Source of the DNA: Pontivivens ytuae
GTDB taxonomy: Bacteria > Pseudomonadota > Alphaproteobacteria > Rhodobacterales > Rhodobacteraceae
NCBI RefSeq assembly: GCF_015679265.1
Contig: NZ_CP064942.1
Coordinates: 1,954,001-2,018,000 of the forward strand
Direction of reading: 5' to 3'
DNA: 64,000 nt
Shown here: piece by piece, positions 6,481 to 59,944 of the stretch
Numbering within the stretch: position 1 is the stretch's first letter
How the letters are laid out: the number at the start of each line of letters is the position of its first letter
Translations under genes and position numbers: made by a program
Notes under the pieces: model-generated
Database searches by the model: none
Told to the model about the DNA's origin: nothing
The model's input: the letters and a program-made list of their open reading frames with translations, nothing else

Positions 6481-7372
6481 TTGCTTCCCTCCAGGGCGAC
6501 AGGTCGAGGTCGAACTCCTGTGCGAGTGCGGCGTTCTCAGCCGCGAACCTCTCCTTCAGCGTCCTAGCCGCCGCCTCAGAGCCCAGCCGTGTGGCGGGCG
6601 TCGTGTTAAACGCGCGGTAGACGGTGCGGATCGCATTGTAGACCGCGCCCTTTGGCAGTCGCTGGCGCAGGGCAATATTCACGCGCTGAAGAGCGTGGCT
6701 GCGGACCGCATAACTTTCGTTCTCGATAGGAAAATGATAACTGTCGTAGTGACTTGGTGAGATACCGAGGCGTTCGGCGAGCGACCTCATGAAGGCCTTC
6801 GGGTTGGTGCGCATGTCTTCGAACAGGCAGACGATCATGCGCTCGGCACCGACAGCATCGCGCCAGGCGCGCAGGTGGTGAACGTAGTTGGCGGTTCCCA
6901 TCGGATCGCCTGCCAGCTCGTTTCCGCGGAAGGCGGCTGGCCCCGACGTGGTCCCAACCCACTCGTCGAACCGCATCCCTGGCGGAATCCAGTGCCAATT
7001 GTTCCGGAAATAGTCGTAGCTGGATTTGATCTGCGCTACCGGCTCACGAAGGATGAAAAGCACGAGGGGCTTCGAGGGCATGTCCTGGACCGCCGCCCGG
7101 GCGGTCTCGTGAACCATGTAGGCCGGCGTCGCCTCCACCCGCACGCGTCCGTCATTGGCGTCCGTCGGGAACAGGTTGGCATAGCCTTCCAGGCCTCGGG
7201 AGACATGCCGATCCGGGCGATGCATATGCGAGCCGGGATCGACGAGGAAGTAGGTCTCTTTCTCCAGCGAGCCCACCACATCGGGATGATCGCTCAGCCA
7301 TCGGAAGAGCGACGTGCTGCCCGATTTCGGGGCCCCGGCGATGATAAGGTCCGGCAGGACGAGAGAGGACAC
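6470..7372 (-). CDS. PAPS-dependent sulfotransferase (heparan-sulfate sulfotransferase-like)
   Basis: A 300-residue protein with both PAPS-binding motifs in clear form: the 5'-phosphosulfate loop AGAPKSGSTSLFRWL (residues 12-26) and the 3'-phosphate motif FILREPVAQIKSSYDYF (near 105-120). This resembles the N-deacetylase/N-sulfotransferase and carbohydrate sulfotransferase group. No signal peptide or membrane segment is seen, so it is likely cytoplasmic. It is the first gene of the leftward operon, 109 bases downstream of ugd on the same strand. It probably sulfates a sugar in the repeat unit, but the acceptor is unknown. Confidence 0.87.
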   Translation of the reverse strand: MSSLVLPDLIIAGAPKSGSTSLFRWLSDHPDVVGSLEKETYFLVDPGSHMHRPDRHVSRGLEGYANLFPTDANDGRVRVEATPAYMVHETARAAVQDMPSKPLVLFILREPVAQIKSSYDYFRNNWHWIPPGMRFDEWVGTTSGPAAFRGNELAGDPMGTANYVHHLRAWRDAVGAERMIVCLFEDMRTNPKAFMRSLAERLGISPSHYDSYHFPIENESYAVRSHALQRVNIALRQRLPKGAVYNAIRTVYRAFNTTPATRLGSEAAARTLKERFAAENAALAQEFDLDLSPWREANAS

Positions 7373-7481
7373 GTCGAAACACCCCAGGCTGACACACTCA
7401 CTGTGCAGCCCGTGATAGCGGCGGTATCCTTAAGGAGGGGTTACGACGGCCACCGCCCGTGGCGGGACCGCGGTGCGGCCC

Positions 7482-8792
7482 CTAGCTGTTGCCGAAGCCG
7501 ATTCCAACATAGTCGAACTCGGCGGCTGCGGCCTGGTCGGGGCCGTAGATGTTGCGCAGGTCGGCGAGCTTTGGTGTGCGCATGATCTCCTTGAGCTTGC
7601 GCAGGTCGAGGGCGCGGAACTGGTTCCACTCGGTGAGGATGACGACGGCGTCGGCGCCTTTAGCTGCGGAATAGGCATCCTCATGCCACGTCACGCCCGG
7701 CAGCAGCCGCTCGCCCTCGCTGCGCCCCTCGGGATCGACCACGTGCACTTCGGCACCGGCGCCGATCAGGGCGGGGACGACGGCGAGCGACGGCGCCTCG
7801 CGCATGTCGTCGGTGTCGGGCTTGAACGTCACGCCGAGAACGGCGATGCGCTTGCCCGTCGCCTCGTAGTCAACGAGGTCGAGCACCTTGTCGATCATCC
7901 GGCGCTTCACCGCCTCGTTGACGTCGATCACGGTCTCCACGATGCGCATCGGGTGGGCGTGCTCCTGCCCGATCCGGGCGAGTGCGCGGGTATCCTTCGG
8001 AAAGCAGGAGCCGCCATAGCCCGGCCCCGCGTTGAGGAACTTCGGCCCGATCCGGCTGTCGAGGCCCATGCCGCGCGCCACGGACTTCGCGTTGGCACCC
8101 GTGCGCTCGCAGAGGCCCGCGATCTCGTTGATGAAGGTGATCTTGGTCGCGAGGAAGGCGTTGGCGGCGTACTTGATCATCTCCGCCGATTCGAGATCGG
8201 TGTAGATCACCGGCGCGTCGCGGAGGGACAGCGGACTGTAGATCGCGGCCATGACCTCGCGCGCCTGCTCGGTCTCCGCCCCCACGACGACGCGGTCGGG
8301 GCGCATGAAATCTTCGATCGCCGCCCCTTCGCGCAGGAACTCGGGGTTGGAGGCAATGTCGAACTCGGCTTGCGGGTTGGCCTTGCGGATGATCTGGGCG
8401 ACGGCGCGGTTGGTGCCGACGGGGACCGTCGATTTGGTCACGACGACCGTGTAGCCGGACAGGTGCTCCGCGATCTCCTTGGCAGCGGCATTGACGAAGG
8501 TGAGATCCGCGTGGCCGTCGCCGCGCCGCGTCGGCGTGCCGACCGCGATGAAGACGGCGTCGGCTGCGGCCACTGCGCTGCCGAGATCGGTGGTGAAGCT
8601 TAGGCGGCCGCCCGCCACGTTCTTTTCCATCAGCGCATCGAGGCCGGGCTCGTAGATCGGCACGTCGCCGGCGCGCAGTTTCTCGATCTTGCCCGCATCG
8701 CGGTCGACGCAGACGACCTCGTGGCCGAAATCCGAGAAACAGATGCCGGAGACGAGGCCGACATAGCCGGTGCCGATCACGGCGATGCGCAT
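7482..8792 (-). CDS. ugd: UDP-glucose 6-dehydrogenase
   Basis: A 436-residue enzyme that oxidises UDP-glucose to UDP-glucuronate with two NAD+. The Rossmann motif VIGTGYVGLVSG is at residues 5-16. The catalytic cysteine lies in YGGSCFPKDT (about residue 260), and the UDP-binding C-terminal domain contains GVTFKPDTDDMREAPS, all typical of the TuaD/RkpK group. Length is normal. It probably supplies the acidic sugar for the exopolysaccharide made by the downstream operon. About 237 bases separate its start from a divergent small gene, so the promoter must lie there. Confidence 0.95.
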   Translation of the reverse strand: MRIAVIGTGYVGLVSGICFSDFGHEVVCVDRDAGKIEKLRAGDVPIYEPGLDALMEKNVAGGRLSFTTDLGSAVAAADAVFIAVGTPTRRGDGHADLTFVNAAAKEIAEHLSGYTVVVTKSTVPVGTNRAVAQIIRKANPQAEFDIASNPEFLREGAAIEDFMRPDRVVVGAETEQAREVMAAIYSPLSLRDAPVIYTDLESAEMIKYAANAFLATKITFINEIAGLCERTGANAKSVARGMGLDSRIGPKFLNAGPGYGGSCFPKDTRALARIGQEHAHPMRIVETVIDVNEAVKRRMIDKVLDLVDYEATGKRIAVLGVTFKPDTDDMREAPSLAVVPALIGAGAEVHVVDPEGRSEGERLLPGVTWHEDAYSAAKGADAVVILTEWNQFRALDLRKLKEIMRTPKLADLRNIYGPDQAAAAEFDYVGIGFGNS

Positions 8793-50827: not shown

Positions 50828-50885
50828 ACCCCGCCCGAAGAACCGTTTGCGCTGCCGGCTCTTCTACAGTAAGACCCGCGGCGAC

Positions 50886-50962
50886 GCACCCATAGCTCAG
50901 CTGGATAGAGCGCTGCCCTCCGAAGGCAGAGGTCTCAGGTTCGAATCCTGATGGGTGCGCCA
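50886..50962 (+). tRNA. tRNA-Arg (anticodon CCG)
   Basis: A complete cloverleaf: acceptor GCACCCA/TGGGTGC, D-arm AGCTCAGCTGGATAGAGC, anticodon stem CTGCC/GGCAG with loop CTCCGAA (anticodon CCG, reading CGG), T-arm with GGTTCGAATCC, discriminator G and an encoded CCA (50960-50962). Confidence 0.97.
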
Positions 50963-51196
50963 CCAATTCCTTGAATTGATCCGCTGAATAATCCGTCCAC
51001 CGCAGGCCAGTCGGCACTTTCGTGATGCGGTCCAGATGTTGTCGCTTGCTTGGGGTTCCTGAGGGGCGATCGATCGTCTGCCGGTCATCGCACTTGGTGG
51101 AGCGATGGCTGCAGTACGCCGCGAGATCCGATGCCTTACGACCTCCGCAGACCGGAAAGAATGCCGCTTCCTTCGGATCGCACGCTTGATACATGT
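50963..51196. other. Non-coding stretch between tRNA-Arg and the zinc operon
   Basis: About 230 bases with no credible gene. Long frames on the minus strand here run through the tRNA and contain the typical artefact reading HPSGFEPETSAFGG, so they are rejected. No integrase gene or duplicated tRNA end was seen in the window. Confidence 0.5.
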
Positions 51197-51210
51197 TATG
51201 TTATAACATA
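51197..51210. promoter_or_regulatory. Zur-like operator
   Basis: TATGTTATAACATA is a perfect 14-base palindrome containing ATGTTATAACAT, the core seen in alphaproteobacterial Zur (zinc uptake regulator) sites. It stands alone in an A+T-rich patch just before a set of genes of the zinc-starvation type, which strengthens the call. The likely action is repression when zinc is plentiful. Confidence 0.72.
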
Positions 51211-51242
51211 CTAAGCGTCTATCGAACTCGAAGAGGTGGTTG

Positions 51243-51416
51243 ATGAGCAGGCCTGTGGTCACGCAACAGCGGCTCTCACAGGTGGCGCCTAAGCGTGCCG
51301 TTGGCCTGTCCAAGCAGATCTTCACCAACACAAGCGCGCTGTCCGACCCCGCGCCCGCTGATCCAGACATGATGCGCCACAACGCGACGACGCTCGCGCG
51401 GGCGCTGAGCTCCTGA
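51243..51416 (+). CDS. Short ORF (57 codons) at the head of the zinc operon
   Basis: An ATG at 51243 with GAGG (51233-51236) at good spacing opens a 57-residue frame ending TGA at 51414-51416, 14 bases before the first COG0523 gene. The product ([18 protein letters not shown] start, [13 protein letters not shown] end) is basic and polar with no membrane segment. It lies between the Zur-like box and the operon, so it would be zinc-regulated. It may be a real small protein or a leader; I do not recognise it. Confidence 0.5.
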
Positions 51417-51430
51417 GGAGAGGAAACCCC

Positions 51431-52648
51431 ATGAACGTTCACGATCCCCGCCTGCCCGTCACCGTCCTCTCCGGCTTTCTCGGCGCGGGCAAGACGACGC
51501 TCCTGAACCGCGTCCTGAACAACCGGGACGGCCGCCGCGTCGCGGTCATCGTCAACGACATGTCCGAGGTGAATATCGACGCCGATCTGGTGCGCGCCGA
51601 CACGGAACTCTCCCGCACCGACGAGACGTTGGTGGAGATGTCGAACGGCTGCATCTGCTGCACCCTGCGCGACGACCTGCTGGCCGAGGTGCGGCGCCTC
51701 GCGGCGGAGGGGCGGTTCGATTACCTGCTGATCGAGTCCACCGGCATCTCCGAGCCGCTGCCGGTCGCGGCCACCTTCGACTTCCGCGATGAGGCGGGCG
51801 ACAGCCTGTCCGATGTCGCACGCCTCGACACGATGGTCACGGTCGTGGACGCCGTGAACCTGCTCAAGGACTACTCCAGCCACGACTTCCTGCGCGACCG
51901 GGGCGAGACGCTGGGTGAGGAGGATGAGCGCACGCTCGTCCACCTCCTCACCGACCAGATCGAGTTCGCCGACGTGGTGATCCTCAACAAGGTGGCCGAC
52001 GCGACGCCCGAGCAGGTCGACGCGGCGCGCAAGATCATCCGCAGCCTCAATGCCGACACCCGGATCATCGAGACCAACCACTCGGACGTACCGGCCGACA
52101 CGATCCTCGACACCGGGCTCTTCGACTTCCAGAAGGCGCATGAACATCCGATGTGGGCCAAGGAGCTCTACGGCTTCGCGGATCATGTGCCGGAGACCGA
52201 GGAATACGGCGTGACCAGCTTCGTCTACCGCGCACGCCAGCCCTTCGTGCCGGAAAAGATCATGGAGGTGCTGAACAACGACATGCCGGGTGTGATCCGT
52301 GCGAAGGGACACTTCTGGATCGCGACGCGGCCGGACTGGGTCGCCGAGTTCTCGCTCGCCGGGGCCCTGTCCTCCGTCACCCCGCTCGGCACGTGGTGGG
52401 CCGCGGTGCCCAAGGACCGCTGGCCCGATCACGACGGCGCGCGTGAGTACATGACGCAGCACTGGCAGGAGCCGTGGGGCGACCGCCGGCAGGAGATCGT
52501 CTTCATCGGCAGCGGCATCGATTGGCCGGCGCTGAAGGCGCGGCTCGATGCAGCACTGCTGCCGGCGGTCGTCGCGGGCGGTCTCGATGAGCTGCCCGAC
52601 CTTCCCGATCCGTTCCCGGCCTGGCGCCGGGCGGAGGCTGCGGCATGA
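51431..52648 (+). CDS. COG0523 (CobW/ZigA-type) GTPase, metallochaperone
   Basis: A 405-residue G3E GTPase: Walker [17 protein letters not shown], metal motif NGCICC (CxCC), Walker [11 protein letters not shown] and guanine motif LNKV (VVILNKVAD). The C-terminal CobW_C domain contains GHFWIATRP. The length and the [15 protein letters not shown] end fit the ZigA/YeiR group, induced by zinc shortage and thought to hand zinc to target enzymes. Upstream is a Zur-like box; the stop overlaps the DUF1826 gene start (ATGA). Confidence 0.92.
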
Positions 52649-53280
52649 CGCTGGTTCGGGAAGTCGTCGAAGACGCCGCGATCGGCGTTGGAGTTGCCGA
52701 CACGGCGGAAGGTCTGTCGGCGCTGCACCAGCCGGGATGCGCCGCCGTGATCTGGCGGCGTCAGACCCCGCCGCACGTTCAGCACTGGCTCGACACGCTG
52801 AAGCCCCAGCAACTGCCGCGCGGCCGCATGATCCTGCATGCGGAAGATGTACGCGATGCGGTGGTGAAGACCTGTGATCTCGCCGGACTGCCGGAGGGGG
52901 CGGAGCGGAACTGGCTGATCGACGACGCCGTGGACCTCGCCGACATGTTCACGGGGCTGGTGAAGGCGCGCCACCTCCGACTGCGGTTCGACGTCGTGAC
53001 CACGAATGCCTGCGAGCGGTTTCACATCGACGCGGTCACGTCGCGGCTCGTCTGCACCTATCGCGGCACCGGGACGCAATACGGGATCTCCCCCGACGGG
53101 GCCGAGCCGCGCCGCGTCTTCACCACACAGACCGGTGCGCCAATCGTCCTGCGCGGCACGCTCTGGCCGGAGCATCCCCGCTCCGGCCTCCTGCACCGTT
53201 CCCCGCCGATCGAGGGAACGGGTGAGACGCGGCTGGTCCTCGTGCTCGATCCGATCTCCGATCCGGAGGAAGAATCCTGA
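52645..53280 (+). CDS. DUF1826 family protein
   Basis: A 211-residue protein with the DUF1826 signature [22 protein letters not shown], in which His and Cys could bind metal. [24 protein letters not shown] closes it. Its function is unknown, and it sits here in a zinc-type operon beside COG0523 genes. It is linked by ATGA and TGATG overlaps to both neighbours, so all three are co-translated. Confidence 0.85.
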
Positions 53281-53570
53281 TGTCAGGAAACCGCGGCCGG
53301 ACGAGCCTCAAGTGCCGCCGCCGATCCGAAGACCCGATGCGCGAATACGACCGCCTGCCGACGGAGCTGCGGGCGTGGCTCGCCTCCGCAGCCCTACCGT
53401 GGCGCCCCCGCTCGGTGCGGCGCGCGTTCGAGGCCGCTTACGCTCGCACGCGGGACGAAGCGAGCGCCCTGCGCGAACTCGATCGCCTTCAGAGCAGACT
53501 TCTGGCAAAGGATGCTGGTAAGATCTGGGGGCGAGGGCATCCCCTCGCGATGGGGGAGTTCGAGACATGA
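53280..53570 (+). CDS. Small basic protein (DUF6525-like)
   Basis: A 96-residue, Arg-rich protein. The pattern TSLKCRRRSEDPMREYDRLPTELRAWLASAALPWRP resembles the small roseobacter family DUF6525. It has no signal peptide or cysteine cluster. TGATG joins it to the DUF1826 gene, and its end overlaps the next COG0523 gene. Function unknown. Confidence 0.65.
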   Translation: MSGNRGRTSLKCRRRSEDPMREYDRLPTELRAWLASAALPWRPRSVRRAFEAAYARTRDEASALRELDRLQSRLLAKDAGKIWGRGHPLAMGEFET

Positions 53571-54679
53571 CGCGTATTCCGGTCACGATCCTGACCGGCT
53601 TTCTGGGAGCCGGGAAGACGACGTTGCTCAACCGCCTGATGACGGAACCGGGTTTCGGTGACACGGCGGTGATCGTGAACGAATTCGGTGAGGCGGGCGT
53701 CGACGGCGGTCTTATCGCGCAGGCCGATGACCGCGCCTTCGCCATGTCGACGGGATGCCTGTGCTGCACAGTGACGGGCGACGTCCGGCTGACCCTGCTG
53801 CGCCTGCTGGATGAGGCCGAGCGCGGCGTCGGCCCCAGCTTCTCGCGTGTGGTTATCGAGACGACGGGTCTCGCCGATCCGGCGCCCGTGCTGCAGACCT
53901 TCATGACGAACGACTACATGCTCAGCCGCTTCACGCTGAACGGCGTCGTGACGCTGGTCGACGCCGTGGGCGGTGCGGACGCCATCGAGCGCTTCGATGA
54001 GGCGCAGCGGCAGGCCGCGGTCGCGGACCTCATGATCGTGACGAAGGGCGACCTCGCGCGGGACCCGGCGTCGCAACGGGAACTGGCGGAGCTGCGCCAG
54101 ACCCTCAGCCGGTTGAACCCGAACGCACGTGTGCTCGACGCCGATCAGGTGTCCGCGGAGACGGTCTTCTCCCTCGCCGCCTTCGATCCGTCGGGGAAAG
54201 CGCCGGACGTGCAAGGCTGGCTGCGCTTCGGCCACGACGACCATGCTGGATCCGGCCATCATCACGGTCACGGCCATGATCACCACGGGCACGACCACCA
54301 TCACCACCACGACATCAATGCCCACGGCGACACGGCGTCGGCCTTCTGCTTCTCCGCCACAGGACCGATCGATCCGTGGGCGCTGGAGGATGCGATCGCG
54401 GCCCTTCAGGCGAGCTTCGGCCGCGACCTGTTGCGCATCAAGGGCTTGGTGGAGATCACCGGCCAGCCCTCCAGACCCCGCGTGCTCCATGTCGTGGGCC
54501 ATATCGCCAGCCCACCGCGGCTCATCGACGGGTGGCCGGAGGGGATCGACGCAACGCGCATCGTGGTGATCGTCAGTGGCGATGGCCGCGCGGCCCTGCC
54601 CGAGATGCTCGGACGGTTCCTGCCCGAGCTCCGCCCGTTCGACCGCCTTGCCGCCGAGCCGGTCGCCGCACCCGCATGA
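53567..54679 (+). CDS. COG0523 (CobW-like) GTPase with His-rich metal-binding loop
   Basis: A 370-residue G3E GTPase with Walker [18 protein letters not shown], metal motif TGCLCC, Walker B VIETTGLADPAP and TKGD guanine motif. Between the GTPase and CobW_C domains is a strongly His-rich run (about residues 223-257, with HHHGHGHDHHGHDHHHHH), absent from the first COG0523 protein of this operon. It could store or sense zinc (or Ni/Co). Overlaps the previous and next genes by ATGA. Confidence 0.93.
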   Translation: MTRIPVTILTGFLGAGKTTLLNRLMTEPGFGDTAVIVNEFGEAGVDGGLIAQADDRAFAMSTGCLCCTVTGDVRLTLLRLLDEAERGVGPSFSRVVIETTGLADPAPVLQTFMTNDYMLSRFTLNGVVTLVDAVGGADAIERFDEAQRQAAVADLMIVTKGDLARDPASQRELAELRQTLSRLNPNARVLDADQVSAETVFSLAAFDPSGKAPDVQGWLRFGHDDHAGSGHHHGHGHDHHGHDHHHHHDINAHGDTASAFCFSATGPIDPWALEDAIAALQASFGRDLLRIKGLVEITGQPSRPRVLHVVGHIASPPRLIDGWPEGIDATRIVVIVSGDGRAALPEMLGRFLPELRPFDRLAAEPVAAPA

Positions 54680-55326
54680 TGCCTTCCCTCAGGAATATCG
54701 GCCTGGCGCTTGGCGCCCTCGCGGCGGCGCCCGCCTTCGCCCATCCCCACGTCTTCATCGACGGCGGTGTCGACTTCGTGCTGCGCGAGGGGGCGGTTCT
54801 CGAAGCGCTCGAGGTGACCTGGCTCTACGACGAGTTCGAAACGCTCTACATTCTGTCATCCTACGATATCAGCCTGAACGACGAGGGGGGGCTCGATGAG
54901 GCGGATCGACAGCAGTTGGTGGGGCAGCAACGCGAATGGCCGGAGGATTTCGAGGGCACCGCGCACCTCACGGTGGAGGGCGAAGACATCGCCCTTGAGC
55001 GGCCGAGCGCGCTCGGCGCCCGCCTCGTCGAGGGTCGTCTGGAATTGACCTTCACCCGGCAACTCGAGAGGCCCATCGCGCTGGAGCAGAAGGACGTCGA
55101 ACTCGCCTTCTACGAGGCGACCTATTTCTACGCTCTGTCGATCGCCAATGCGCCGCAACTGCTTGGCGAGCCCGGCGGCTGCGCGGCGCAGGTGGTCCCC
55201 TTCGAGCCCGACACGCAGCTCGCGGCGTTGGAGATGACCCTCTTCGAGCTCGGCCGCGAGGAAACCCCCGCGATCGAGAATGTCGGCGCCCTCTTCGCCG
55301 ACAGGATTGCCCTGCGATGCGACTAA
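54676..55326 (+). CDS. DUF1007 family periplasmic protein (ZevA-like)
   Basis: A 216-residue protein with signal peptide (residues 1-23, cut after PAFA) and the DUF1007 start HPHVFIDGGVDFVL just after it, whose His residues could bind metal. DUF1007 proteins pair with NicO-type permeases; Haemophilus ZevA/ZevB is the described zinc-uptake example. It overlaps the following permease gene by 10 bases. ATG 54676 and ATG 54679 are both possible. Confidence 0.85.
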   Translation: MMPSLRNIGLALGALAAAPAFAHPHVFIDGGVDFVLREGAVLEALEVTWLYDEFETLYILSSYDISLNDEGGLDEADRQQLVGQQREWPEDFEGTAHLTVEGEDIALERPSALGARLVEGRLELTFTRQLERPIALEQKDVELAFYEATYFYALSIANAPQLLGEPGGCAAQVVPFEPDTQLAALEMTLFELGREETPAIENVGALFADRIALRCD

Positions 55327-56198
55327 TCCTCCCCTTCATTCTGGTTGCGGCCGCGATCCTCGCCGTGTCCCTCAGCGTCGATTTCGACAGCGTCGCGCGG
55401 TGGGCGGCCGAACAGCAGCGCAGCTTCCAGAACCACATGGCGACTGCGATCCGCGCCCTGCGATCCGGGGATGCGGGCGCTGTCGCGGCACTTCTCGCGG
55501 CGGCAGGGGCCTATGGCTTCGTCCACGCCGTGGGGCCCGGGCACGGCAAGTACCTGATCGGCGGCGTCGGCCTCGGGACCTCAGTCTCCGCCACCCGCCT
55601 GTTGGGCATCGCGCTCGTGTCGAGCCTGATGCAGGCGCTCTGGGCCATCGCGCTGGTCTATGGCGGCTTTCTGCTGCTGGAGGTCTCGGCCCGCCAGATG
55701 ACCACGCTGGCGGAGGACATCCTCGCCCCGGCCAGCTACCTTGCCATCGCCGCCGTCGGCCTGATCCTCGTCTGGCGCGGCGGGCGGGCTCTCATTCGGC
55801 GCAATGCGCCTGAGCCGAGCCACCACCACGCGGAACACGATTGCGGCTGCCATTCGCACGGGCCGTCCCCGGACCAGGTCGCCCGCCTCGCATCGTGGCG
55901 CGAGGCTGCCGTTCTGGTCGCGAGCATCGCGATCCGCCCCTGCACCGGCGCGATCTTCCTCCTCGTGATCGCCTGGCAGATGGACATCCGCCTGGCCGGC
56001 GCCGCCGCCGTCGTGGTCATGGGCATGGGCACCGCCGCCCTGACGAGCATCGTGGCGGTGTCGAGCACCGCCGCCCGGGGCCTCACATTCGCCTCGGCCG
56101 GCGGCAGGGGCATGTCACTCGCGGTGCCAGCGCTTCAGATCGCAGCCGGTGCTGCCATCGCCTGGATCAGCATGGTGACGCTCAGCCTTTCGCTCTGA
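55317..56198 (+). CDS. NicO/RcnA-like metal permease (ZevB-like)
   Basis: A 293-residue membrane protein with about seven helices. The NicO blocks are FVHAVGPGHGKYLIGGVGLG (with the HAVGPGHGK His motif) and ASIAIRPCTGAIFLLVIAWQ. The middle cytoplasmic or periplasmic loop is His-rich (EPSHHHAEHDCGCHSHG). RcnA exports Ni/Co, but with the ZevA-like partner and a Zur-type box, zinc uptake is more likely. It is the last gene of the operon, followed by a shared terminator. Confidence 0.87.
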   Translation: MRLILPFILVAAAILAVSLSVDFDSVARWAAEQQRSFQNHMATAIRALRSGDAGAVAALLAAAGAYGFVHAVGPGHGKYLIGGVGLGTSVSATRLLGIALVSSLMQALWAIALVYGGFLLLEVSARQMTTLAEDILAPASYLAIAAVGLILVWRGGRALIRRNAPEPSHHHAEHDCGCHSHGPSPDQVARLASWREAAVLVASIAIRPCTGAIFLLVIAWQMDIRLAGAAAVVVMGMGTAALTSIVAVSSTAARGLTFASAGGRGMSLAVPALQIAAGAAIAWISMVTLSLSL

Positions 56199-56243
56199 CG
56201 ACGAGGTGGCGCTTTACGCCACAACAACGGCTTCTAAAGAGAA

Positions 56244-56266
56244 AGGCCCGGCGCAATGCCGGGCCT
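56244..56266. terminator. Bidirectional terminator
   Basis: A perfect 9-bp stem, AGGCCCGGC (56244-56252) and GCCGGGCCT (56258-56266), with CCCTTT on the plus side and TTTCTCTTT on the minus strand. It lies between the convergent metal permease and phoX genes. Confidence 0.85.
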
Positions 56267-56288
56267 CCCTTTGGATCAGCCGATAGGG

Positions 56289-58313
56289 TCAGACCGCGAT
56301 GGGCTCGCCGTCTTCCTTGGTGACGACCACAACCGACGGGCGCGGCGGCATGTTGTCGTCGAAGTCGGGCCAGCGGGTCGCCGGGTCCTCAAACGTGGAG
56401 TCCCGCTCGAAGCCCGCGAAGTCCGACGTGCCGTCCGTGCCCGGGTGCTGGACCGCGAGGAACAGCGTCCGGCTCTCATCCGCGAAGTACGGCCCGCAGA
56501 GCTCACCGCCGACCGGGCAGCGGAAGAAGAGCTTGGAGTGGCCGCGCAGCTCACCTTCGGTCTCCAGCGAGTAGAGGCCGTCGGACTTGCCCGTCCTGCC
56601 CCAGTTGCCGCCCTGATCGGTCGAGATCCAGAGCCGACCCGCATTGTCGATCGCGCAGTTGTCCGGCGAGCCGAACCAGCCGTTCTCCGAGGTTTCGGGG
56701 TTCCACTGGGCGCCCACCTCCTCGATCTCGGGATCACCGCAGAGGACGAGGATCGACCAGGTGCCAAACTCGGCGGAGTGGTTGCCGCCTTCTTCCTTGA
56801 TCTCGATGATGTGGCCGAAATTGCTCTCGGGCCGCGGGTTGGCGGCATCCACCTGCTCCGGCGCCCGGCGGGAGTTGTTGGTGAGCATGATGTAGGCCGT
56901 GCCGTCGCCGCGCGGCTGCGCGTCCTCGGGCCGGTCCATCGGCGTCGCACCCAAGAGGTCGGCGGCGAGGCGCGTGTCGATGGCGATATCGGCCTGGCTC
57001 TCGAACCCGTTCTCCGCGGTCAGCGGGCCCTGGCCGTGGACCAGCGGCAGCCAGTGCACCGTGCCGTTGTCGTCGAACCGCGCGACATAGAGCGTGCCCT
57101 CCGACAGCAGCGTCGAGCCGAAATGGCTGTTCTCCTCCGTCACTGGCTCGGCGGAGACCCACTTGTACTGATAGTCGAAGCGGTTGTCGTCGCCCGAGTA
57201 GATCACCAGCCGCCCGTCGGAGGCGATGGTGGTCTCCGCGCCCTCGTGGCGGAAGCGGCCAAGCGCGGTGTGCTTGATCGGCATCGCGTCGGGGTTCAGC
57301 GGATCGACCTCGACGATGTAGCCGAAGCGGTTGGGCTCGTTCGGCTCGCGGTCGATGTTGAAGCGGTCATGGTACTGGCCCCAGGCATACCAGCGGCCGG
57401 GCACGCCGTAGCGCTCCATCGACGCGGCCTCGGGCTGGGCGGAGACGTCCGGATCGCCCTCGCCATCGAGCACGTCGGTCCAGAAGTAGCCGTGGAAGTT
57501 CTCCTCGGCCATCAGGTAGGTGCCCCAGGGCGTCATGCCGCCGGCACAGTTGTTGATGGTGCCCAGCACCGTCATGCCCGCGGGATCGGCGGAGGTGCGC
57601 AGGCGCGGGTGACCGGCGGCAGGGCCGTCGAAGGTGATCGGGGTGTTCGCGGTGATCCGGCGGTTGGCCGGGTTGTTGCGGTTGACCGACCAGCGGCCGT
57701 CGTCGCCCTTCACGATCTCGAAGACGGAGCCGCCATGGGCCGCCATCTCGATGTTCACCAGCTCCTCGGTCATGCCCTCGAACCCGGCGCGGTCCTGACG
57801 GCCGAGACCCGGGAACATGACCTCCTCGTTGGTGTATTCGTGGTTGACGCAGAGCATGCCGCGGCCCGGCTCGATCTCGGCAAAGCCCACATAGTCGTTG
57901 TTGTAGCCGAACTGCTGGGACTGTGCCTCGGCCGTCTGGTTCATGACGTCGAACTCGGGCGCGTCCGCGGTGATCGGATCACCCCAGCGAACCAGGATGT
58001 CGGCGTTGTAGCCCTCCGCGATGTGGTGGTTGACGTCGTTGCCCCAGGCAAGCTCGTTGAACACGTACCGGCTGTCGGCGGCGGTCTGTGCAGCCGCCTG
58101 GCGCGGCGCGGTCAGGGCCGTCGCACCGAACAGTGCAGTGGTCGCGGTGACGCCGAGCGAGCCGCGCAGGAAGTCCCGGCGACCATAGCGGCGCGCGATC
58201 ACATCCCCGATCGTATTCCCCAGATTCGGGTTGGTCGGGATATCGTCGAACGCCTCGAATGCTTCGGCCTTGTTGCCGTGCTCGGGGCTCGCAATGATCT
58301 CTCTTCGGGACAT
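56289..58313 (-). CDS. phoX: PhoX-family alkaline phosphatase (DUF839)
   Basis: A 674-residue PhoX-type Ca2+/Fe3+ phosphatase that frees phosphate from organic esters in the periplasm. A long N-region contains a Tat motif RRDFLRG (residues 45-51) and a hydrophobic segment. Typical blocks include LCVNHEYTNEE, FDGPAAGHPRLRTSADPAG, INNCAGGMTPWGTYLMAEEN and GDDNRFDYQYKWVSAE. A Pho box lies 76-93 bases upstream. Monocistronic. Confidence 0.93.
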   Translation of the reverse strand: MSRREIIASPEHGNKAEAFEAFDDIPTNPNLGNTIGDVIARRYGRRDFLRGSLGVTATTALFGATALTAPRQAAAQTAADSRYVFNELAWGNDVNHHIAEGYNADILVRWGDPITADAPEFDVMNQTAEAQSQQFGYNNDYVGFAEIEPGRGMLCVNHEYTNEEVMFPGLGRQDRAGFEGMTEELVNIEMAAHGGSVFEIVKGDDGRWSVNRNNPANRRITANTPITFDGPAAGHPRLRTSADPAGMTVLGTINNCAGGMTPWGTYLMAEENFHGYFWTDVLDGEGDPDVSAQPEAASMERYGVPGRWYAWGQYHDRFNIDREPNEPNRFGYIVEVDPLNPDAMPIKHTALGRFRHEGAETTIASDGRLVIYSGDDNRFDYQYKWVSAEPVTEENSHFGSTLLSEGTLYVARFDDNGTVHWLPLVHGQGPLTAENGFESQADIAIDTRLAADLLGATPMDRPEDAQPRGDGTAYIMLTNNSRRAPEQVDAANPRPESNFGHIIEIKEEGGNHSAEFGTWSILVLCGDPEIEEVGAQWNPETSENGWFGSPDNCAIDNAGRLWISTDQGGNWGRTGKSDGLYSLETEGELRGHSKLFFRCPVGGELCGPYFADESRTLFLAVQHPGTDGTSDFAGFERDSTFEDPATRWPDFDDNMPPRPSVVVVTKEDGEPIAV

Positions 58314-58406: not shown

Positions 58407-58618
58407 AACCTTCGGGGCGCAACTTTGACGCGCCTGCTAGCCTAGCTCGGAGGCCAACCGCCGATGCTGATTGGCGGCAAGATCGCTGCCTGCGCGCCCG
58501 AGATTTTCGGTTCGCGTAACTTATCAATAGCGCAGGACAGGTGCTCAATCCTACATGCGTCCTTGTCCTTCCCCCCTAGAACTGGGCCATTACATTGGCC
58601 GCGAGAGGGGGATTGGGC

Positions 58619-58906
58619 ATGGCGAGGAAGCGACATTCAGACGAAGACATCTTGAAGCTGCTGCGTGAGATCGAGCTGAAGCTGACGGCGGGCGATGACG
58701 TGGCCACTGCATGCCGCGGCGTCGGGATCAGCGACGCGACATACTACAACTGGCGGAAACGGTTTGGCGGGATGGGCCGGTCGCAGCTGTCGGAGATGAA
58801 GAGTTTGGAGAAAGAGAACGCCCGACTGAAGAAGATCGTCGCCGAGCTCGAACTGGACAAGCTCATACTCAAGGAAAGCCTGAACCACCTAAAGCCCAGG
58901 GCCTGA
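58619..58906 (+). CDS. IS3-family transposase OrfA
   Basis: A 95-residue DNA-binding protein with a helix-turn-helix (DVATACRGVGISDATYYNWRKRFGGM) and a C-terminal leucine-zipper-like helix (EKENARLKKIVAELELDKLIL), the typical OrfA build. ATG 58619 is preceded by GAGAGGGGG. The frame shifts by -1 into OrfB in the overlap, where full transposase OrfAB would be made. Confidence 0.9.
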   Translation: MARKRHSDEDILKLLREIELKLTAGDDVATACRGVGISDATYYNWRKRFGGMGRSQLSEMKSLEKENARLKKIVAELELDKLILKESLNHLKPRA

Positions 58907-59760
58907 CCACAGAGGAGCTTCGTCAGGCCGTCCTTCACACACGCCAGAAGCTTGCCACGTCTGAGCGGCGGACCTGCCGGGTGATTGGCCTGGCGCGGAG
59001 CTCCCTGCAATATCAGCCAACACAGAGAGACGATGATGCGCTACGGTTGGCTCTGATCCGGTTGGCGAAGCAGTACGGGCGATATGGCTACCGCAAGATC
59101 ACGGAGCTGCTTCACATGGAAGGCTGGCGGGTCAATCACAAGAAGGTCGAGCGGCTCTGGCGTGAGGAAGGATTGCAGCTTCCGCAGCGGCACAAAAAGC
59201 GCAAGCGGCTCTACCACAAGGGCAGCTCGATCATCCGGCTTCGGCCCACGCACCCGAACCATGTTTGGGCAATAGACTTCGTGCATGACAAGCTCAGCAA
59301 TGGGCGCAGTTACAAGATGCTGACGGTTCTCGACGAGTTCACGCGGCAGGCCTTGGCTGTTGTGGTCCGCACCAAGATGGGTGCCGACGAAGTTCTCGAA
59401 GCACTCTATCCGCTCCTGCTGCGCCACGGTTCCCCGGAGTATATCCGGTCCGATAACGGACCCGAGTTCGCAGCAGAGGCGATGCAGGGCTGGCTTCGGC
59501 GTGTTGGGATCAAGCCCATCCGCATCTACCCAGGATCACCCTGGGAGAACGGATACAACGAGCGCTTCAATGGGACATTACGGCGAGAGGTTCTCAATGC
59601 GGAGTGGTTCACGACGACCAAGCAAGCTCAGATCGTCATCAATCACTGGCTCAGGCAGTACAATCACACCCGACCGCATCAGGCACTCAACATGCGCCCA
59701 CCCGTTCCTGAAACAATATTAGAGAAACCCCTGATCAGTGGCCCAGACACAGGGGGCTAG
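58711..59760 (+). CDS. IS3-family transposase OrfB (rve integrase domain)
   Basis: The frame is open from 58711; true OrfB sequence begins near the end of OrfA (LTTEELRQAVLHTRQKL) in the -1 frame. The HTH_21 region (YRKITELLHMEGWRVNHKKVERLWREE) precedes the DDE integrase: Asp in WAIDFVHDKL, Asp in IRSDNGPEF and Glu in WENGYNERFNGTLRRE, with HYTRPHQAL-like NHTRPHQALNM at the end. All three catalytic residues are present, so the element looks functional. Confidence 0.92.
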   Translation: MPRRRDQRRDILQLAETVWRDGPVAAVGDEEFGERERPTEEDRRRARTGQAHTQGKPEPPKAQGLTTEELRQAVLHTRQKLATSERRTCRVIGLARSSLQYQPTQRDDDALRLALIRLAKQYGRYGYRKITELLHMEGWRVNHKKVERLWREEGLQLPQRHKKRKRLYHKGSSIIRLRPTHPNHVWAIDFVHDKLSNGRSYKMLTVLDEFTRQALAVVVRTKMGADEVLEALYPLLLRHGSPEYIRSDNGPEFAAEAMQGWLRRVGIKPIRIYPGSPWENGYNERFNGTLRREVLNAEWFTTTKQAQIVINHWLRQYNHTRPHQALNMRPPVPETILEKPLISGPDTGG

Positions 59761-59868: not shown

Positions 59869-59944
59869 CAAATAGAGCTGCAGAGTAGGGCGGTTTGCAC
59901 ATCATATTGTGGACGAAAGCGCCGTAAAGGGATAGTGTTGTGCT

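Follow-up and report, generated by a model that had tools for sequence, protein, structure and literature searches.

Organization of the operon

The 64,000-nucleotide stretch of Pontivivens ytuae DNA considered here (the window; contig NZ_CP064942.1, positions 1,954,001 to 2,018,000) contains a genuine operon that very probably serves zinc starvation; its kind is known, and the parts are combined in an unusual way. At its head lies a 20-base Zur box, TGTTATGTTATAACATACTA (51194..51213), enclosing the perfect 14-base Zur-like palindrome TATGTTATAACATA (51197-51210, inside TGTTATGTTATAACATA, 51194-51210) that the original prediction had placed there. On the forward strand follow a 57-codon open reading frame (ORF; 51243..51417), a 405-residue ZigA-like COG0523 GTPase (51431..52648), a 211-residue DUF1826 protein (52645..53280), a 96-residue DUF6525 protein (53280..53570), a second COG0523 GTPase of 370 residues with a His-rich linker (53567..54679), a 216-residue DUF1007 protein (54676..55326) and a 293-residue NicO-type permease (55317..56198). 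With the chosen starts, each an ATG, neighbours among the six long genes overlap by 4, 1, 4, 4 and 10 bases, a further start upstream of the chosen one being possible for the DUF1007 frame. All six match Pfam families above the curated cut-offs: CobW with CobW_C in both GTPases (CobW at 181.6 and 153.7 bits), DUF1826 (193.7 bits), DUF6525 (96.9 bits), DUF1007 (133.9 bits) and NicO (40.7 bits, cut-off 27.7). The original prediction of a mostly overlapping seven-gene set holds for the order, the coordinates and the six long genes, and very probably fails for the short ORF as a member.

The Zur box and its relatives

The core TGTTAYN3ATAACA, which lies directly upstream of the operon, occurs exactly at two places in the 4.2-Mb genome, here and ahead of an operon for an ATP-binding cassette (ABC) transporter of the SBP_bac_5 type (genome position 1601136). 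When one mismatch is allowed there are five places genome-wide, a backwards control giving one match per strand, and a 17-mer search with up to three mismatches returned eight matches at six places, compared with one for its backwards control. The one-mismatch copies lie in the zur-znuC/znuA gap, where Zur has a like box at its own promoter, ahead of a second zur-like gene, and at genome position 651976. The Zur sites of Caulobacter crescentus have the same TGTTAT-N3-ATAACA layout, and those promoters are bound by Zur in vitro; the core of its zrpW site, TGTTACTTTATAACA, is identical to the core ahead of the ABC operon here (PMC4176598). In the literature covered, zinc repression through Zur is in print for related bacteria only.

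Similar boxes accompany the related loci. In 67 of 114 deduplicated DUF6525/DUF1826 loci, a site anywhere in the locus matches the 20-base consensus with up to 5 mismatches (60 control palindromes: mean 1.0, maximum 7), and a Zur-like site lies within 300 bases ahead of zigA in 24 of the 37 copies with DUF6525 downstream (controls: mean 0.04, maximum 4). Genes for zur, zur-like or znu products stand in the same locus in 21 of the 114. The related loci drawn were the best 80 of 505 relatives, which biases the corresponding counts towards close relatives.

Two other Zur-like matches were, as a matter of judgement, not taken as operators: one at genome position 2359271, inside a frame that resembles purK by eye, and one at window position 59936, with mismatches at 4 of 20 bases. 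The copy at 651976 extends over the end of one frame, and about 25 bases after it begins another, which by eye resembles triosephosphate isomerase; the copy was excluded from the regulon and may still belong to it.

The second zur-like gene (3259445-3259771), which encodes a Fur-family protein, is preceded by a box of its own and followed directly by a COG0523 gene (the two genes together 3259445-3260379). This arrangement, along with a divergent DUF1636 gene, was seen in the region 3259338-3260379 and in a fetched locus (L011:945-1394; L numbers denote such loci). The second exact core (L277:12137) is situated just ahead of an apparent five-gene SBP_bac_5-type ABC operon (L277:7196-12130), for which the binding-protein family was assigned by similarity to L224 and the remaining genes by eye. 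Six fetched relatives carry an SBP_bac_5 ABC gene right after zigA-DUF1826, five of them with DUF6525 in between, and their binding protein is 45-48% identical to the one behind this second core. Like pden1341-1344 of Paracoccus denitrificans, the L277 system may import a zinc complex or a peptide.

A probable remnant of an aztC-like gene

The 57-codon ORF matches no Pfam or NCBIfam family above cut-off. It aligns to the C-termini of AztC-like proteins, at best with E 3e-6 and 43% over 56 residues, the alignment ending at the C-terminus; this search used a small database of the other fetched loci and no composition correction. The AztC model NF040870 itself gives 14.3 bits against a cut-off of 350 (E 0.02), over profile positions 238-277 of 277. 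AztC is also the best NCBIfam model for all five full-length relatives tested (297-319 bits, under the cut-off of 350), in whose genomes the full aztC-like gene stands just ahead of a COG0523 or zigA gene. No protein of this genome exceeds the AztC cut-off, the best reaching 200 bits. To judge by these alignments, the ORF is very probably what is left of an aztC-like gene at its 3' end, and probably functionless; this correction to the earlier gene list is new as far as the searched literature shows.

The fullest relative of the operon (L108/L209) has a perfect palindrome ahead of a zur-like gene, and continues with genes for an ABC ATPase, a zinc-binding protein, a COG0523 GTPase, ZigA, DUF1826 and an alcohol dehydrogenase, and then a second DUF1826, DUF6525, a relative of the His-rich-type COG0523 GTPase (in two pieces), DUF1007 and NicO. 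Because of this gene order and the match of the short ORF to AztC C-termini, the window operon looks like the right-hand part of an operon of the L108/L209 type, in which a deletion would have joined the Zur box to the aztC stump; the deletion is proposed from comparison with sampled genomes that included none of the same genus.

DUF1826 and its predicted oxygenase fold

The DUF1826 family is closely linked to ZigA. In the family sample 31 of the 33 genomes with DUF1826 have a ZigA match, compared with 60 of 198 overall (P=3e-17), and in the phylum sample 25 of 34, compared with 56 of 299 (P=6e-14); these P values treat genomes as independent and are optimistic because the genomes are related. 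A ZigA relative more than 50% identical lies inside the 1.5-kb flanks of DUF1826 in 16 of 28 phylum loci.

The predicted structure adopts a double-stranded beta-helix, and its closest folds in a Foldseek search are those of hydroxylases and related oxygenases. The expected HxD...H triad and downstream arginine are conserved as well, with H127 and D129 in 59/59 aligned rows and H184 and R196 in 58/59, the single miss being an interrupted frame. H127, D129 and H184 are candidate iron ligands and R196 a candidate 2-oxoglutarate-binding residue. C123, four residues ahead of H127, is also conserved. In a 75-row set, second DUF1826 copies with loss of one residue of the predicted triad were observed: L209:8840-9463 is without C123 and H127, and L158:558-1169 without H184. 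By sequence no relative of DUF1826 was found in the PDB, where one unrelated row appeared at E 0.24. Placing DUF1826 in the iron/2-oxoglutarate oxygenase superfamily, a prediction from a model, is new as far as the searched literature shows.

DUF6525

DUF6525 (PF20135; gathering cut-off 23.5 bits) was found in 66/198 genomes of the operon's own family, the Rhodobacteraceae. In a sample of 289 genomes of the class it exceeded the cut-off in three, all of that same family, and six further matches fell under it; at most 18 candidates were scored per genome here, and a distant relative could be missed. It is also present in 20 of 72,556 plasmid records, whose named organisms include Paracoccus, Roseivivax and Pseudosulfitobacter.

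DUF6525 and ZigA co-occur in 49 of the 66 genomes (P=3e-21). Of 68 fetched copies 67 were examined, L244 being dropped where the profile gave none, and 37 of these lie within 1.9 kb downstream of zigA. Among the other 30, a Zur-like site stands within 250 bases upstream of 17 (200 control palindromes: mean 0.03, maximum 2), 4 follow a DUF1826 gene, and 9 have neither; the 9 include L096, counted as having no zigA although zigA and DUF6525 share about 9 bases there. At L250 and L259 the match to DUF6525 is weak and partial, and the DUF1826 flag of L094 is doubtful. Since Zur-like sites lie upstream of copies away from zigA, DUF6525 very probably belongs to the zinc-starvation genes independently of zigA, as more than its passenger. 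The protein is small and basic (isoelectric point 8.7-11.9, median 11.3, n=37) and predicted to be all-helical, with no convincing match in a predicted-structure search. A role in RNA or the ribosome is a guess of low confidence. A literature search by the name DUF6525 returned no paper, and as far as the searched literature shows DUF6525 is new as a Zur-box gene, the newer of the two proteins of unknown function.

The GTPases and the DUF1007/NicO pair

Two distinct COG0523 GTPases had been proposed, and both carry CobW, CobW_C and a CxCC motif (CICC, CLCC). The first is a CobW-type GTPase (PF02492, GCICC) for which ZigA is the best subfamily model, at 592 bits compared with 155 for CobW. The second has E. 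coli YjiA (1nij) as its best PDB match by sequence, and by eye a long His-rich linker at about residues 225-258. In 12 loci (10 once duplicates are removed), among them L108 at 6678-7841, the zigA-DUF1826 operon has within it or nearby a gene for a zinc-type alcohol dehydrogenase, and a class III alcohol dehydrogenase is annotated near the operon in Paracoccus versutus; this enzyme is a possible client of the GTPase.

The DUF1007 gene is followed directly by the NicO gene, as expected of a ZevAB-type pair. By eye, the ZevA-like DUF1007 protein begins with a signal-peptide-like stretch, and the ZevB-like permease has a His-rich loop. The family, the context and the logic of repression suggest that this ZevAB-like pair would import zinc, and the pair, the two different GTPases and the Zur-type zinc control that had been claimed are well supported by the sequence.

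Around the operon, a tRNA-Arg gene (50886-50962) lies upstream of the Zur box, and a promoter scan of 50850-56400 gave no sigma-70-like site. A G+C-rich hairpin seen by eye (56244..56266), for which a terminator scan gave no call, is a possible terminator between the operon and the convergent phoX (56289-58313, minus strand). PhoX alkaline phosphatases are not known to depend on zinc. Farther on, two frames at 58595-59760 resemble by eye an IS3-type transposase pair.

Proposed function and alternatives

Computation establishes the box, the gene order, the conservation, the predicted fold and the linkage over many genomes. In the explanation that we favour, with a probability of about 75% for the whole of it, including the roles of DUF1826 as a hydroxylase and DUF6525 as an accessory protein, Zur would occupy the 51194-51213 box while zinc is present and block transcription, and a fall in zinc would release one transcript from the whole operon. 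The DUF1007/NicO pair would probably carry zinc across the inner membrane, and the two CxCC GTPases would probably hold the scarce zinc and pass it on. DUF1826 would probably be an iron/2-oxoglutarate hydroxylase whose substrate is a protein or peptide of the pathway by which the preceding ZigA-like GTPase delivers zinc, and DUF6525 a small, basic accessory protein with its own place in the zinc-starvation response. Repression by Zur in P. ytuae, the direction of transport, the hydroxylase activity and its target, and the role of DUF6525 are here what we infer.

Several observations weigh against this explanation. A box within 5 mismatches is absent from 13 of the 37 zigA copies with DUF6525 downstream, and zigA has an Rrf2-family gene as a near neighbour in 22 of 120 loci, counting duplicates (for example L236:5259-5687; PF02082, 105.9 bits for one member). 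This gene is divergent in the 18 measured, across a gap of 3-106 bases with recurring GTAACT, AGTTGC and AGTTAC words, and 21 of the 22 loci have no Zur-like site with up to 5 mismatches within 400 bases of it. Because these loci are without a Zur-like box, control is not always by Zur, and some of the relatives probably use another regulator. In print, the electrophoretic mobility shift affinity order for P. denitrificans names zur/znuA, aztA, pden1341 and norC, and not the COG0523 gene pden1338 discussed below, in the section covered (PMC5387054); the likely identity of pden1339/1340 with DUF1826/DUF6525 comes through two other Paracoccus only. The first GTPase falls 8 bits short of the ZigA equivalog cut-off (NF038288; 592 vs 600 bits), which is passed in 7 of 60 own-family genomes with a strong ZigA match, and its gene is therefore named ZigA-like. 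Of the 114 loci, 11 contain both DUF1007 and NicO and 13 at least one of them, which makes the module an optional addition. For DUF1826, 9 of the 34 phylum-sample genomes have no ZigA match at the threshold used, Foldseek gives low TM-scores (0.35-0.52 relative to query length, among the matches listed), many of those matches are one protein, PHD2, and 0 of 15 members match a named Pfam 2-oxoglutarate-oxygenase family at E<=10. Resemblance of fold alone shows no activity.

Among the alternatives, the one with the most in its favour, still short of an even chance, keeps the operon and changes its regulator: the second zur-like protein (3259445-3259771) would control it, and not the zur of the znu cluster. 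This gene has its own box with a COG0523 gene directly after it, and its relatives stand ahead of ABC-zigA operons; similar boxes lie at the own promoters of both regulators, so that sequence cannot tell them apart. Rather doubtful is the proposal that DUF1826 has the oxygenase fold and is no enzyme, H127, D129 and H184 (with C123) binding zinc in a protein that carries or stores the metal as a partner of the ZigA-like GTPase. HxD...H triads are able to hold Zn(II), and C123 could be an unusual extra ligand. Against it stand the hydroxylases and related oxygenases as closest folds and R196, kept in nearly every row and sitting, we assume, where 2-oxoglutarate enzymes carry their 2-oxoglutarate-binding arginine. 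On the other side, the P. aeruginosa DUF1826 protein PA5534 has been termed a possible zinc-sparing paralog or zinc chaperone, or annotated as a metallochaperone (PMC11761036, PMC13083405).

That the short ORF encodes a functional leader or small protein is improbable: it has a start codon, an open frame and, by eye, a ribosome-site-like stretch, but its alignment covers the final stretch of AztC-like proteins, with the same end residue, and it occupies the position that full genes of that kind have in relatives. Least probable is an operon for cobalt or nickel in place of zinc. Nickel transport gave NicO its name, and CobW belongs to COG0523; against this, a Zur-type box heads the operon, zur and znu genes are linked to it in relatives, and the ZigA model outscores that of CobW by the margin given above. 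Zur-controlled genes of P. aeruginosa, PA5534/PA5535 among them, are repressed by cobalt and not by Cu, Ni or Mn (PMC13083405).

Returning to the zinc-starvation operon, its wider interest lies in the clients of COG0523 zinc metallochaperones and the roles of the uncharacterised proteins induced beside them. A tentative joint proposal, which we think likelier to be wrong than right, covers zinc-starved Proteobacteria in general: the DUF1826 protein hydroxylase would work with ZigA-type GTPases, hydroxylation, paid for with iron and 2-oxoglutarate, directing zinc to clients, and DUF6525 would be a family-specific zinc-sparing factor, perhaps on the ribosome or RNA, added by one bacterial family and without recognised counterparts outside it. 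Should DUF1826 prove to be a hydroxylase, a direct biochemical test becomes possible, and iron and zinc physiology would be tied together. DUF6525 would be a compact zinc-starvation gene that is open to deletion studies in common laboratory strains.

Comparison with known systems

The clusters of Haas 2009 (PMC2770081) resemble this operon in their Zur sites, in COG0523 GTPases of more than one subfamily per regulon, and in DUF1826, which appears in the Figure 4 legend; in the main text, as excerpted, DUF1826 is the only DUF, is given no function, and DUF1007 is not named. A Zur-linked cluster of Francisella also includes DUF1826 (FTN_1758; PMC5786701). In P. aeruginosa PA5532-PA5536, zigA lies beside DUF1826 (PA5534) with a second CobW nearby, as here, and the unit is listed as raised in zinc-shortage or related data; it includes dksA2, and the excerpts do not name DUF6525, DUF1007 or NicO there (PMC4542158, PMC9431628, PMC10393844). 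PA5534 responds to zinc shortage, with a table value of 57.5 that is taken as a fold change (PMC4542158), and was called unannotated or of unknown function in 2025 (PMC11761036, PMC13083405). Since DUF1826 has already been printed in Zur-linked clusters, what it lacks is an assigned function, and as a factor it is not new; of the suggestion that both proteins of unknown function are new zinc-homeostasis factors, the link to zinc survives for both and the novelty does not for DUF1826.

In P. denitrificans, the seven genes pden1338-1344, which include a Ni/dipeptide ABC transporter, are induced 7.7-16-fold, and under zinc depletion or chelation the paired values are 13.2/9.8-fold for pden1338 (COG0523), 10.6/9.6 for pden1339, and 8.6/8.3 for pden1340 (Neupane 2017, PMC5387054). 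Zur motifs stand ahead of pden1338 (GTAACGTAATAACAT, 19-33 bases ahead of the start) and pden1341 (PMC5387054). The same 15 bases lie at the same distance ahead of GTP-binding protein-DUF1826-DUF6525 in P. versutus and P. ferrooxidans, and pden1339/1340 are therefore likely DUF1826/DUF6525. The last of these genes is annotated as hypothetical in P. ferrooxidans and was recognized as DUF6525 by tblastn; the genes after DUF6525 differ from the pden locus, being arsH in the plasmids of both species. The 15-mer is absent from 7 genomes of one genus guessed to be near Paracoccus. The pden locus thus shares with this operon a COG0523 gene, two hypothetical genes and a Zur motif in the promoter, and continues with a Ni/dipeptide-type ABC transporter and its own Zur motif, where the present operon has the His-rich COG0523 GTPase, DUF1007 and NicO; in P. 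ytuae such an ABC operon lies elsewhere with its own box (1601136).

Outside zinc regulation, DUF1826 has in common with PHD2 and the bacterial P4H 4j25, Fe(II)/2-oxoglutarate oxygenases of the prolyl-hydroxylase type, the predicted fold and the HxD...H...R order, and differs from such enzymes in being without a Pfam 2-oxoglutarate-family match or a PDB relative by sequence. The DUF1007/NicO module in turn resembles ZevAB of Haemophilus influenzae, reportedly described by Rosadini in 2011, which we take to consist of a DUF1007-type protein and a NicO-type permease; here, the pair is part of one operon with two GTPases, DUF1826 and DUF6525.

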